Virus record (IMG/VR): IMGVR_UViG_3300006802_000606
Span: 1 to 23,185 of that record
Length of the DNA: 23,185 nucleotides
Reading direction: 5' to 3' (one strand)
Source: a virus
The notes under the pieces: model-generated
Databases searched by the model: none
Seen by the model: only the letters and a program-made list of their open reading frames with translations
What the model was told of the DNA's origin: nothing
In this document: positions 1,329 to 18,690 of the stretch, piece after piece
Numbering within the stretch: the stretch's first letter is position 1
Layout: every line of letters begins with the position of its first letter
Position numbers and translations under genes: made by a program

Positions 1329-1336
1329 TATTTATA
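1329..1336 (-). promoter_or_regulatory. T4-type late promoter TATAAATA
   Basis: The minus strand reads TTATAAATAC, an exact match to the T4 late promoter box. With the box placed at -13 to -6, transcription would start near 1323. This leaves a 15-nt leader that contains the AAGGA ribosome site of the ATG at 1308. No -35 element is needed for this promoter class. One of four exact copies in the window, all intergenic and on the coding strand. Confidence 0.65.
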
Positions 1337-4310: not shown

Positions 4311-4318
4311 TATTTATA
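4311..4318 (-). promoter_or_regulatory. T4-type late promoter TATAAATA
   Basis: The minus strand reads TTATAAATAC, the same 10-mer as at 1329-1336. The predicted start is near 4305, upstream of the zinc-ribbon and methyltransferase genes. It sits in the intergenic gap after the 4341-4532 gene. Confidence 0.65.
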
Positions 4319-4532: not shown

Positions 4533-5802
4533 CCTGCCATCTCCTTATTATGGTGTCGCAGAATTTTGGTTCAAACTCGATGCATCTGGCGATCCTGTTG
4601 GTGCGCTCCGCCGCTATCAGTGTGCTACCGGATCCCGCGAATCCGTCAAATACTATCTCACCCGGCTGTGAAGAATTGATCAGATGATAGGCGATCAGTT
4701 TCACCGGTTTCACCGTGGGATGCAGGCTGGCTATCCGTCTGCTTTCTTTGTCAAATTCTTGATAGTTGGTGATGATGCCTTTCAGCAGTGACCGCAGTTG
4801 CTTTTCATCCATTTGGTCCAGGGTTTCTATGTCCAGGGTGTTGGGAGTTATACCACGAGCGTGCCATGGGTGAGCGGCACCTCGCCTCCAGCCATAGAAT
4901 ATGGGCTCATAGAACTTGGCGTAATCGCTCAACCAAGTGCTGTGTTTGTTCTTTTTCCATATCAGCGTGTCCGCCACATGTATGTCATTGTGCTCCAATA
5001 GATCATGTATGCGGCTGTTGAACCTGATATCATGACAGAAGTACACCGGTCCGCCGGGACGTAGATATCGCAGTATCTGCTCCAACTGCCTCTGCAATAG
5101 ATTTAAAAGTCCCTGCTCGCCCAGCGTGTCATTGGCTATGATGTGATTCCTTAATTCGTTCTCGGCGGGTGTGTAGTTGATCCCGTTGGCCGTTTCATAT
5201 GCTATGCCATAGGGTGGATCCTGCCATACCATGTCTATGCGGTCATCCGCCATTAATTTTTTAAAACATTCCGGGTCGGTGCTGTCTCCGCAGACCAAGC
5301 GATGTGATCCCAAATGCCACACGTCTCCGGTCTTGGTATGAAATATCTCGTTGTTGTCGTATTTGGTCAGGTCGGGCTCTTCCTGCATCTTGAATAGCTT
5401 GTTCAACTCGCTCTCCCTGAATCCGGTCTGTATGCTCAAATCCTGTAGATTGCTGTTTTTCATCAGTGCCTCTAATTCAGCGAACAACAGGTCGGTGTCC
5501 CATTGGCTTTCCTCGGCCGCGCGGTTGTCCATTATCCTATAGGCCCTGACCTTTTCCTCGTCTAGGTCTGTGGCCGTGACCACCGGCACTTTTTGCAGTC
5601 CCAGTTTCTTGGCCGCTTTCAGTCTGGTGTGACCCACGATCACTATGTTGTTCTTATCAACCACGATGGGTTGCTGGAATCCATATCTCTCTATGGAATT
5701 TGCGACCTTGTCTATGCTACGTTGATTTTTTCTTGGGTTGGCATGGTATGGTTGTATTTGGTTTGGATCCAACCATTGGATCTGATATTGTGTCTCTTGC
5801 AT
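4477..5802 (-). CDS. ParB-like nuclease domain fused to DNA methyltransferase
   Basis: Residues 1-95 form a ParB/Srx-type domain with the start strand ending IQPYHANPRKN (16-26) and the motif GHTRLKAAKKLG (57-68). A linker leads to a beta-class amino-methyltransferase domain: QDPPYGI at 194-200, HPTVKP at 361-366 and FAGSGST at 388-394. This fusion is common in phages and prophages, where it is annotated as a ParB-like DNA modification methylase. It should methylate adenine-N6 or cytosine-N4 in phage DNA. The start is fixed by the ParB domain. There is no Shine-Dalgarno; instead a TATAAATA box ends only 5 nt before the ATG, so the mRNA should begin at or next to the start codon. Confidence 0.92.
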   Translation of the reverse strand: MQETQYQIQWLDPNQIQPYHANPRKNQRSIDKVANSIERYGFQQPIVVDKNNIVIVGHTRLKAAKKLGLQKVPVVTATDLDEEKVRAYRIMDNRAAEESQWDTDLLFAELEALMKNSNLQDLSIQTGFRESELNKLFKMQEEPDLTKYDNNEIFHTKTGDVWHLGSHRLVCGDSTDPECFKKLMADDRIDMVWQDPPYGIAYETANGINYTPAENELRNHIIANDTLGEQGLLNLLQRQLEQILRYLRPGGPVYFCHDIRFNSRIHDLLEHNDIHVADTLIWKKNKHSTWLSDYAKFYEPIFYGWRRGAAHPWHARGITPNTLDIETLDQMDEKQLRSLLKGIITNYQEFDKESRRIASLHPTVKPVKLIAYHLINSSQPGEIVFDGFAGSGSTLIAAERTNRIARCIEFEPKFCDTIIRRWQDESGQRAKSATGQDFPGQ

Positions 5803-5807
5803 AGAAA

Positions 5808-5815
5808 TATTTATA
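5808..5815 (-). promoter_or_regulatory. T4-type late promoter placed for a leaderless mRNA
   Basis: The minus strand reads CTATAAATATTTCTATG. With the box at -13 to -6, +1 falls on position 5802, the A of the ParB-methyltransferase ATG. The gap between the box and the ATG is only five bases and contains no ribosome site. Confidence 0.6.
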
Positions 5816-5821
5816 GGGTGT

Positions 5822-6100
5822 TTAAAAATCTATCCTTCCGCCTGGGTGTTCGTTGCCCAATATCTTTAGCAGTATCCAGTTGCGTATCTCGGGGTTGAGT
5901 TGATCAGAGCAAGTGGTATAGATCTGGGACCAGAATATGTTGGTCTCCACCCAATCCTCTGGTTCCCATGCTGTTTCTGTGATCGAATCCACTATGCCAT
6001 TGATCTTTCTGGTGCGGATGTATTGTCGGGCATACTCCTGTATGTCTTTGACCGAGTGGTGTGGTTGGATAAATGTTTTTAAATAATCGTAGATGCCCAT
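5822..6100 (-). CDS. Hypothetical protein, 92 aa
   Basis: A complete frame starting MGIYDYLKTFIQPHHSVKDI. It contains a helical acidic segment (WEPEDWVETNIFWSQIYTTC) and ends HPGGRIDF. Aromatic residues are frequent; there is no signal peptide or membrane segment. No Shine-Dalgarno is present. Instead the ATG lies at the loop edge of a 7-bp hairpin (6092-6111) that can compete with a 10-bp hairpin upstream, so translation may be switchable. It follows the lipoprotein gene by 50 nt and precedes the ParB-methyltransferase gene. Family not recognised. Confidence 0.7.
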   Translation of the reverse strand: MGIYDYLKTFIQPHHSVKDIQEYARQYIRTRKINGIVDSITETAWEPEDWVETNIFWSQIYTTCSDQLNPEIRNWILLKILGNEHPGGRIDF

Positions 6101-7384: not shown

Positions 7385-7897
7385 ATGACCGTGGTTTGGT
7401 TCAATGGCCCCAGCGCCCGTGATTTTTACACGATACCGCCGCAATCCCGGGAGATAGGTTGCAATTTCATCCTGGAGCACAGGCGGGTGCATCACGTGTG
7501 TGCCTATGACGCACAGGTGATCAACCGCACCGATCGTTTCGAGGACGGGGTGCAGTATTGGACGCGACCACAACTGCGCCGCCATCCCTGGCTGGCGCCG
7601 GAGGCCACGCATCAGGCCCAGTGCTCGGGCACCCTGGCGCTGGTGTTGGCGCACTCGCTGGGCTCGGGTCCGGTCTGGTTGGTGGGTTGCGATTGGGGCA
7701 TCACCGATCACAGCCTGTTCGATGACCGTTATGTGTGGAGGCATGGCCCGCCACGCAAGACCAATCGCTACAAGATCCAGCTGTTGCAACGCCTGGCGCG
7801 GGAGATGGAGATCACCATGGTGCACGATCGGGTGCGTGATCTGGCACCGGAACTGAGATGGCAGGATCCGGCGTCTTTCATCCGGGATCGTTCCTAG
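7385..7897 (+). CDS. DUF115/MptE-like Rossmann-fold protein (glycosyltransferase-like)
   Basis: This is the only well-supported plus-strand gene. Near the N-terminus, WFNGPSARDF (5-14) resembles the GNGPSL loop of sialyltransferase-like and DUF115 folds. AYDAQVI (40-46) matches the usual D-containing strand. CSGTLALVLAHSLGSGPVWL (80-99) followed by VGCDWG (100-105) is the typical S/G-helix then strand ending in G-x-D. Related phage proteins have similar length and are annotated as unknown or glycosyltransferase-like. Modification of glycans or nucleotides is an inference. The gene is GC-rich compared with the tail genes, has no clear ribosome site, and shares its stop with the convergent J-like gene. 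Confidence 0.7.
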   Translation: MTVVWFNGPSARDFYTIPPQSREIGCNFILEHRRVHHVCAYDAQVINRTDRFEDGVQYWTRPQLRRHPWLAPEATHQAQCSGTLALVLAHSLGSGPVWLVGCDWGITDHSLFDDRYVWRHGPPRKTNRYKIQLLQRLAREMEITMVHDRVRDLAPELRWQDPASFIRDRS

Positions 7898-16663: not shown

Positions 16664-16709
16664 GACAAAGTCCTCCTAGGTTGTGATGTGTTAGTCCTTC
16701 TAACAAATA

Positions 16710-16717
16710 TATTTATA
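16710..16717 (-). promoter_or_regulatory. T4-type late promoter TATAAATA
   Basis: The minus strand reads TTATAAATAT. Predicted start near 16704, giving a 41-nt leader with an AGGAGG site for the connector gene. The box begins inside the U-tract of the terminator that ends the capsid transcript, so termination and re-initiation share bases. Confidence 0.7.
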
Positions 16718-18385: not shown

Positions 18386-18417
18386 TTGAGTTCCTCCTTT
18401 TGGTTGAGTAAGTTTAT

Positions 18418-18690
18418 TTATTTTGTTTCTTTGCCGCCAGTGAATATATCATTGTAGTATTCTTTGATTCTTTTTTCGTCTGAGCTGTATAATGCCAGTA
18501 GTTCTAGTTTTCTTTTGTGTATCAATGCTTTCATTTTTTGTAGATGCTTCCTCGCCATGAATGCGGCACGAATGCTTTGGTGTTTTTGCACTCTCTGATT
18601 ATAGAATAGATATTGTTTGATTTCGTTTTCTAGTGCGTTGGCTGTGGCTGTTTGTACTGCCTGGCCTTTTAACTTACCATGATAGGGCAT
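18418..18690 (-). CDS. Small basic helical protein, 90 aa
   Basis: Begins MPYHGKLKGQAVQTATANAL and is almost wholly helical, with clusters of K/R (FMARKHLQKMKALIHKRKLE) and an acidic end (YSSDEKRIKEYYNDIFTGGK). There is no membrane segment. It lies between the small Cys-rich gene and the scaffold gene. No strong ribosome site. Possibly a structural or DNA-binding small protein; family not recognised. Confidence 0.65.
   Translation of the reverse strand: MPYHGKLKGQAVQTATANALENEIKQYLFYNQRVQKHQSIRAAFMARKHLQKMKALIHKRKLELLALYSSDEKRIKEYYNDIFTGGKETK

Follow-up and report, generated by a model that had tools for sequence, protein, structure and literature searches.

Probable T4-type late promoter boxes five bases before start codons suggest leaderless late mRNAs in a family of small siphovirus-type phages and in a T4-like pelagiphage

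How would a phage gene be translated if its start codon lies five bases past a promoter-like box and has no Shine-Dalgarno (SD) sequence? This question is raised by a ParB-methyltransferase gene on the minus strand of a 23-kb virus record (IMG/VR IMGVR_UViG_3300006802_000606), the whole 23,185-nt stretch of which was analysed here and is referred to as the window. The junction reads CACCC-TATAAATA-TTTCT-ATGCAAGAG (Table 1), as in an earlier sequence-only reading, which had placed the box five bases before the ATG at 5802. That reading had also noted the missing SD, and none of at least 4 nt was found upstream of this ATG, compared with 19 of the 27 listed start codons in the window that have one (8 do not). 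The ParB_N match covers residues 8-93 of the methyltransferase, so that the domain requires the start at 5802, again as claimed; the sole in-frame alternative within 75 nt of the box, a TTG at codon 11, would cut into ParB_N. We consider it likely that the box at 5815-5808 is a promoter of the T4 late type that consists of a -10 element only, that RNA starts at the A of the ATG, and that the leaderless mRNA is read by ribosomes on its 5'-terminal AUG. Transcription from this A would yield a late methyltransferase mRNA without a 5' leader, on which ribosomes would start directly. On an mRNA reading through from the upstream 92-aa gene, the AUG would be internal and, lacking an SD, poorly translated, so that the promoter would link production of the methyltransferase to late infection.

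Table 1. Boxes, genes and associated elements in the window (coordinates are those of the 23,185-nt stretch)
Feature	Coordinates	Strand	Basis
TATAAATA box with a leader; ATG 20 nt further on, preceded by AAGGA	1329..1336	-	
TATAAATA box downstream of the methyltransferase gene	4311..4318	-	
ParB_N + N6/N4 DNA methyltransferase, 441 aa	4477..5802	-	
ATG start codon; A is the putative +1	5800..5802	-	junction, family +1 profile, SD absence
Five-base spacer TTTCT (putative -5 to -1), with the T at -1 seen in the family profile	5803..5807	-	
TATAAATA box of late promoter type (putative -13 to -6)	5808..5815	-	junction, motif excess, family enrichment
Upstream 92-aa ORF, ending 19 nt short of the ATG; possible source of read-through mRNA	5822..6100	-	
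Stem-loop GTTAGAAGGACTAAC, beginning 5 nt past the box at 16710..16717; AGAAGGA conserved in relatives	16690..16704	-	
TATAAATA box following the major capsid gene; conserved in relatives	16710..16717	-	
AATAAATA box ahead of the scaffold gene; its leader has AAGGAGG	18415..18422	-	

The window encodes a terminase, a portal protein, a scaffold, a capsid and a lambda-J-like tail, and, judged by its terminase, portal and capsid, it is closest among named phages to DSL-LC06 and to pelagiphages such as HTVC026P, always at less than 60% identity. It is a fragment of a family of ~30-kb siphovirus-type phages and is not T4-like. Twelve gene clusters, which look like virion or packaging genes, were common to all 12 genomes compared. 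Four relatives (G039, G049, G068 and G069) appear circular, their ends overlapping by 77-153 bp; these and L020, at ~30-34 kb, carry virion genes, glycosyltransferases and methyltransferases, with no recognisable replication or sigma genes.

Homologues of the ParB-methyltransferase with at least 50% identity were found on 10 distinct contigs including the window, and five of these have an upstream box. The junction itself is present in only two of the 10, which weighs against the leaderless reading: the box, five bases and ATG (box-N5-ATG) occur in the window and in L001, whereas L181, L183 and L184 have the box with a longer leader and no box was found near the start in L002, L003, L182, L187 and L209. 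With half of the homologues boxed and two of them in the N5 form, the promoter appears to be commonly placed at this gene, the putatively leaderless form being one version. In L181 (~2050-2120), an 11-codon frame that may encode a leaderless leader peptide starts at a box-N5-ATG ahead of the ParB-methyltransferase.

Across the family, 126 boxes had a gene start within 90 nt, at a distance of 4 nt (n = 2), 5 nt (n = 6), 7 nt (n = 1), 11 nt (n = 1) or at least 15 nt (n = 116). An SD of at least 4 nt preceded 110 of the 116 leadered starts, a fraction raised by the rule that the start with the best SD was taken; where an ATG lay within 7 nt, it took precedence. The N5 cases comprised the window gene, the L001 ParB-methyltransferase, the L006 terminase (TerL), a 79-aa ORF in L010 whose junction is also found in L012, a 93-aa ORF in G039 and an asparagine synthase in G063, and the N4 cases were homologous genes of 322 and 307 aa in G039 and G049. 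Two further N5 cases were added, a homologue of the asparagine synthase gene in G062 and a 109-aa gene in G069, the box of which fell out of the 126-box set. The 7-nt case, in L046, was rejected, its ATG lying inside a long gene. Taken alone, the N5 count is modest, since counts of 4-6 at individual distances were also seen in the family set for other 7-mers of equal composition. The asparagine synthase, with GATase and Asn_synthase domains and a junction kept in three contigs, begins Met-Cys-Gly, and because the Cys beside the Met is the catalytic nucleophile in this enzyme class, its start is fixed by chemistry, while the L006 terminase start aligns with those of other terminases. The homologue of the 79-aa ORF in L264 (1548-1562) carries a variant of the box at an unchanged spacing (CTTAAATA-ACATT-ATG).

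These cases also bear on whether the box is used at all. The methyltransferase could be the second gene of a polycistronic mRNA, its SD-less start translationally coupled to the 92-aa ORF that ends 19 nt away. Short gaps of this kind also precede the L001 (32 nt), L006 (20 nt) and one of the G039 starts (20 nt), and 8 of the 27 window starts lack a 4-nt SD. In five of the 10 cases with a box 4 or 5 nt from the ATG, however, the upstream gap is 140-652 nt, so that coupling could serve the window gene but not these five, and the spacing is fixed at 4-5 nt and recurs in the T4-like phage HTVC008M and contig C28 described below. We regard coupling to the 92-aa ORF as quite improbable.

That the box is a promoter is suggested by its distribution. 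In the window, TATAAATA occurs four times, always on the gene strand, against 0.95 expected, and four or more copies arose in none of 100 shuffles; a fifth site, AATAAATA (18422-18415), lies upstream of the scaffold gene. Protein searches yielded 100 non-redundant loci (1.13 Mb), in which intergenic copies of NATAAATA, with the core ATAAATA, numbered 111 in sense versus 7 in antisense; the next 7-mers of equal composition in these loci were TAAATAA (97), which overlaps the box, and then one with 48. Such protein-found sets replaced an 88-locus set that had included motif-found loci. Full contigs G014-G016, from a more distant capsid group, showed no strand bias; in the full-contig scan, the orientation of each contig was chosen by its box count, a choice biased towards the forward strand. 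An alignment (A2) gave no usable pattern.

A profile of 141 de-duplicated family boxes was drawn from 91 contigs, of which G023 and G033 were reached only via motif loci; G014-G016 were left out and distant loci under other identifiers stayed in. No -35 element was conserved among these boxes. The fifth spacer base (-1) was T in 57% and the next base (+1) a purine in 78%, and with the leaderless cases removed the counts were 77 of 133 and 104 of 133. According to passages of PMC1524935, the T4 late box spans -13 to -6 and its first base varies among T4 relatives; the family profile accordingly places +1 five bases past the box. A T at -1 and a purine at +1 at exactly the T4 spacing would set +1 on the A of the methyltransferase AUG, in support of what the sequence-only reading had proposed. 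Two T4-type late features are present, the NATAAATA box and, by sequence statistics, a +1 five bases past it without a -35. Among 45 distinct leader stem-loops, the first paired base lies 2-11 nt past the box, mostly 4-8, in agreement with this +1 although not sharp. Positions -50 to -3 of the 141 boxes alternate between AT- and GC-rich stretches with a period of ~10-11 bp, as if helically phased.

Were transcription to begin a few bases away, the mRNA would carry a leader of 1-10 nt and the start would simply lack an SD. Two observations fit such a shift, namely that the two N4 cases (G039 and G049) would put +1 on a U and that the first paired base of the post-capsid stem-loop varies from 2 to 11 nt past the box, but the T(-1)/purine(+1) peak falls at N5 and nine of the 11 HTVC008M starts within 12 nt sit at exactly five, which renders a short leader distinctly unlikely. 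A different reader of the box would leave the mRNA leaderless but not late: TATAAA is one base off the sigma-70 -10 element, and the box might be a host housekeeping -10 needing no phage factor, in keeping with the lack of any phage sigma found in the relatives. Against a host promoter, the first base of the box is free (N) and the core is ATAAATA, as in T4-like late boxes (passages of PMC1524935 and PMC2984593), there is no -35 conservation, the boxes precede virion genes, and the sister pelagiphages L021 and L022 show no intergenic sense bias. Host-driven transcription seems unlikely.

An independent comparison was provided by HTVC008M (NC_020484), a T4-like pelagiphage with an annotated late sigma factor (gp55), in which an ATG follows at exactly 5 nt in nine of the 20 promoter-like boxes. 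Other starts nearer than 12 nt lie at 7 and 8 nt (one each), giving nine of 11 at exactly 5, and no other 7-mer of the same composition exceeded 4 at any distance in this genome. All six of the nine N5 starts that were compared match deposited start codons, and belong to genes for the tape measure, DNA end protector, tail tube cap, baseplate wedge subunit, baseplate wedge initiator and a 2OG oxygenase. The T4-like contig C28 has the N5 arrangement at seven of 25 promoter-like boxes, as opposed to none of 31 in T4 and none of 28 in S-PM2, and a simple pattern count (forward plus reverse versus a reversed-pattern control) gave 3 vs 3 in P-SSM2, 0 vs 2 in KVP40, 1 vs 1 in Syn9, 2 vs 0 in RB49 and 2 vs 0 in T4. 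The box-N5-ATG design therefore looks lineage-specific.

Set beside known systems, the family boxes share with the gp55/gp33/gp45-dependent T4 late promoters an octamer of variable first base, the lack of a -35 and a five-base spacer tending to end in T before a purine +1, but T4 late genes are leadered, with no ATG-initiated ORF within 12 nt at the 31 promoter-like boxes, and no credible gp55 was found in the relatives of the window. The earlier name of T4 late promoter accordingly holds for box sequence and spacing and serves as a description of sequence, not of a proven reader, because the phage is not T4-like and its relatives yielded no credible gp55. The layout shared with HTVC008M extends to virion genes, whereas the G at -5 found in 80% of HTVC008M boxes occurs in 6% of family boxes, which speaks against a simple link between the two. 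Lambda cI is a leaderless phage mRNA, likewise with a 5'-end AUG and no SD, but is a repressor gene at a host-read promoter, while the window family has a late-type promoter and several unrelated genes in this layout. The retention of box-N5-ATG at the L001 methyltransferase and the same spacing at unrelated genes and in HTVC008M favour the leaderless mRNA first proposed from the window; promoter activity, the exact +1, leaderless translation and late timing are what we infer from it. The recurrence of the layout in relatives and in a cultured T4-like phage of marine origin points to a genuine mode of late-gene initiation in phages, and this general pattern, rather than the single methyltransferase gene, is the interesting result.

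As to who would read the box, phrog_234 (T4 gp55) had no credible match in 74 phage records, mostly family members, the window itself being a fragment, and phrog_12791 had no match in the family. A 14-bit gp55 match in the small phage G036 was to a Lys/Arg-rich HTH-like protein and was dropped as spurious, and another, in the metagenome-assembled genome (MAG) G073, was on the T4-like phage contig C28 and not on the bacterium proper or a small phage. No replication family matched among 38 non-virion ORFs of G049, G068 and G069 or 10 of G039, a search that divergent initiators could escape. DnaB_C and DNA_pol_A were absent, which is not decisive because the sister pelagiphages lack both too; HTVC202P and HTVC026P have a DnaD-domain gene and no promoter-like box bias. 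According to PMC10611076, all seven of its genomes have replication genes, whereas the deposited DSL-LC06 table lists none. Virion-encoding satellites without replication genes are known (Streptomyces satellite phages; PMC10690885), to which the circular-looking relatives compare in having virion genes and no recognised replication gene; the T4-type boxes are additional here. On these grounds, with neither recognised replication genes nor a sigma factor in the relatives, it is conceivable, if rather doubtful, that the ~30-kb family represents virion-encoding satellites of marine T4-like phages, lacking replication genes and a late sigma, bearing partly leaderless T4-type promoters and transcribed, perhaps replicated, by a co-infecting T4-like phage. 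The literature search found no paper on a satellite with T4-like late promoters. Within the genome collection, the family capsid was found on a single contig, in a Porticoccaceae MAG that also contains a T4-like phage contig, which may reflect co-binning.

In phages, leaderless mRNAs are mostly regarded as exceptional, and leaderless late phage genes are not described in the available text of the literature searched, outside which most subscription journals fall. The sharp box-N5-ATG peak in two phage groups, one of which is in culture together with its host, suggests a second role for late promoters in fixing where translation begins, and such promoters would tie expression to ribosomes that accept 5'-terminal AUGs. 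The layout may help to explain why late-promoter prediction reportedly failed in pelagimyophages (a passage of PMC7029224), and gene starts can be corrected by the simple box-N5-ATG rule. Because the small phages apparently lack gp55, it can be tested directly which machinery transcribes them.

Other features of the window were recorded alongside. The box downstream of the capsid gene is found in most close relatives, followed by a stem-loop with AGAAGGA, and this stem-loop, in the window and its relatives, is possibly a 5' stabiliser or a protein site in late mRNA. An S-adenosylmethionine decarboxylase gene (PF02675; 19184-19606), with relatives in several family loci, lies between portal and scaffold, and a second N6/N4 DNA methyltransferase gene (PF01555; 2667-4034) lies near the ParB-methyltransferase. 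A plus-strand ORF at 7385-7897 opposes the other genes and has relatives of 36-47% identity in six family loci.
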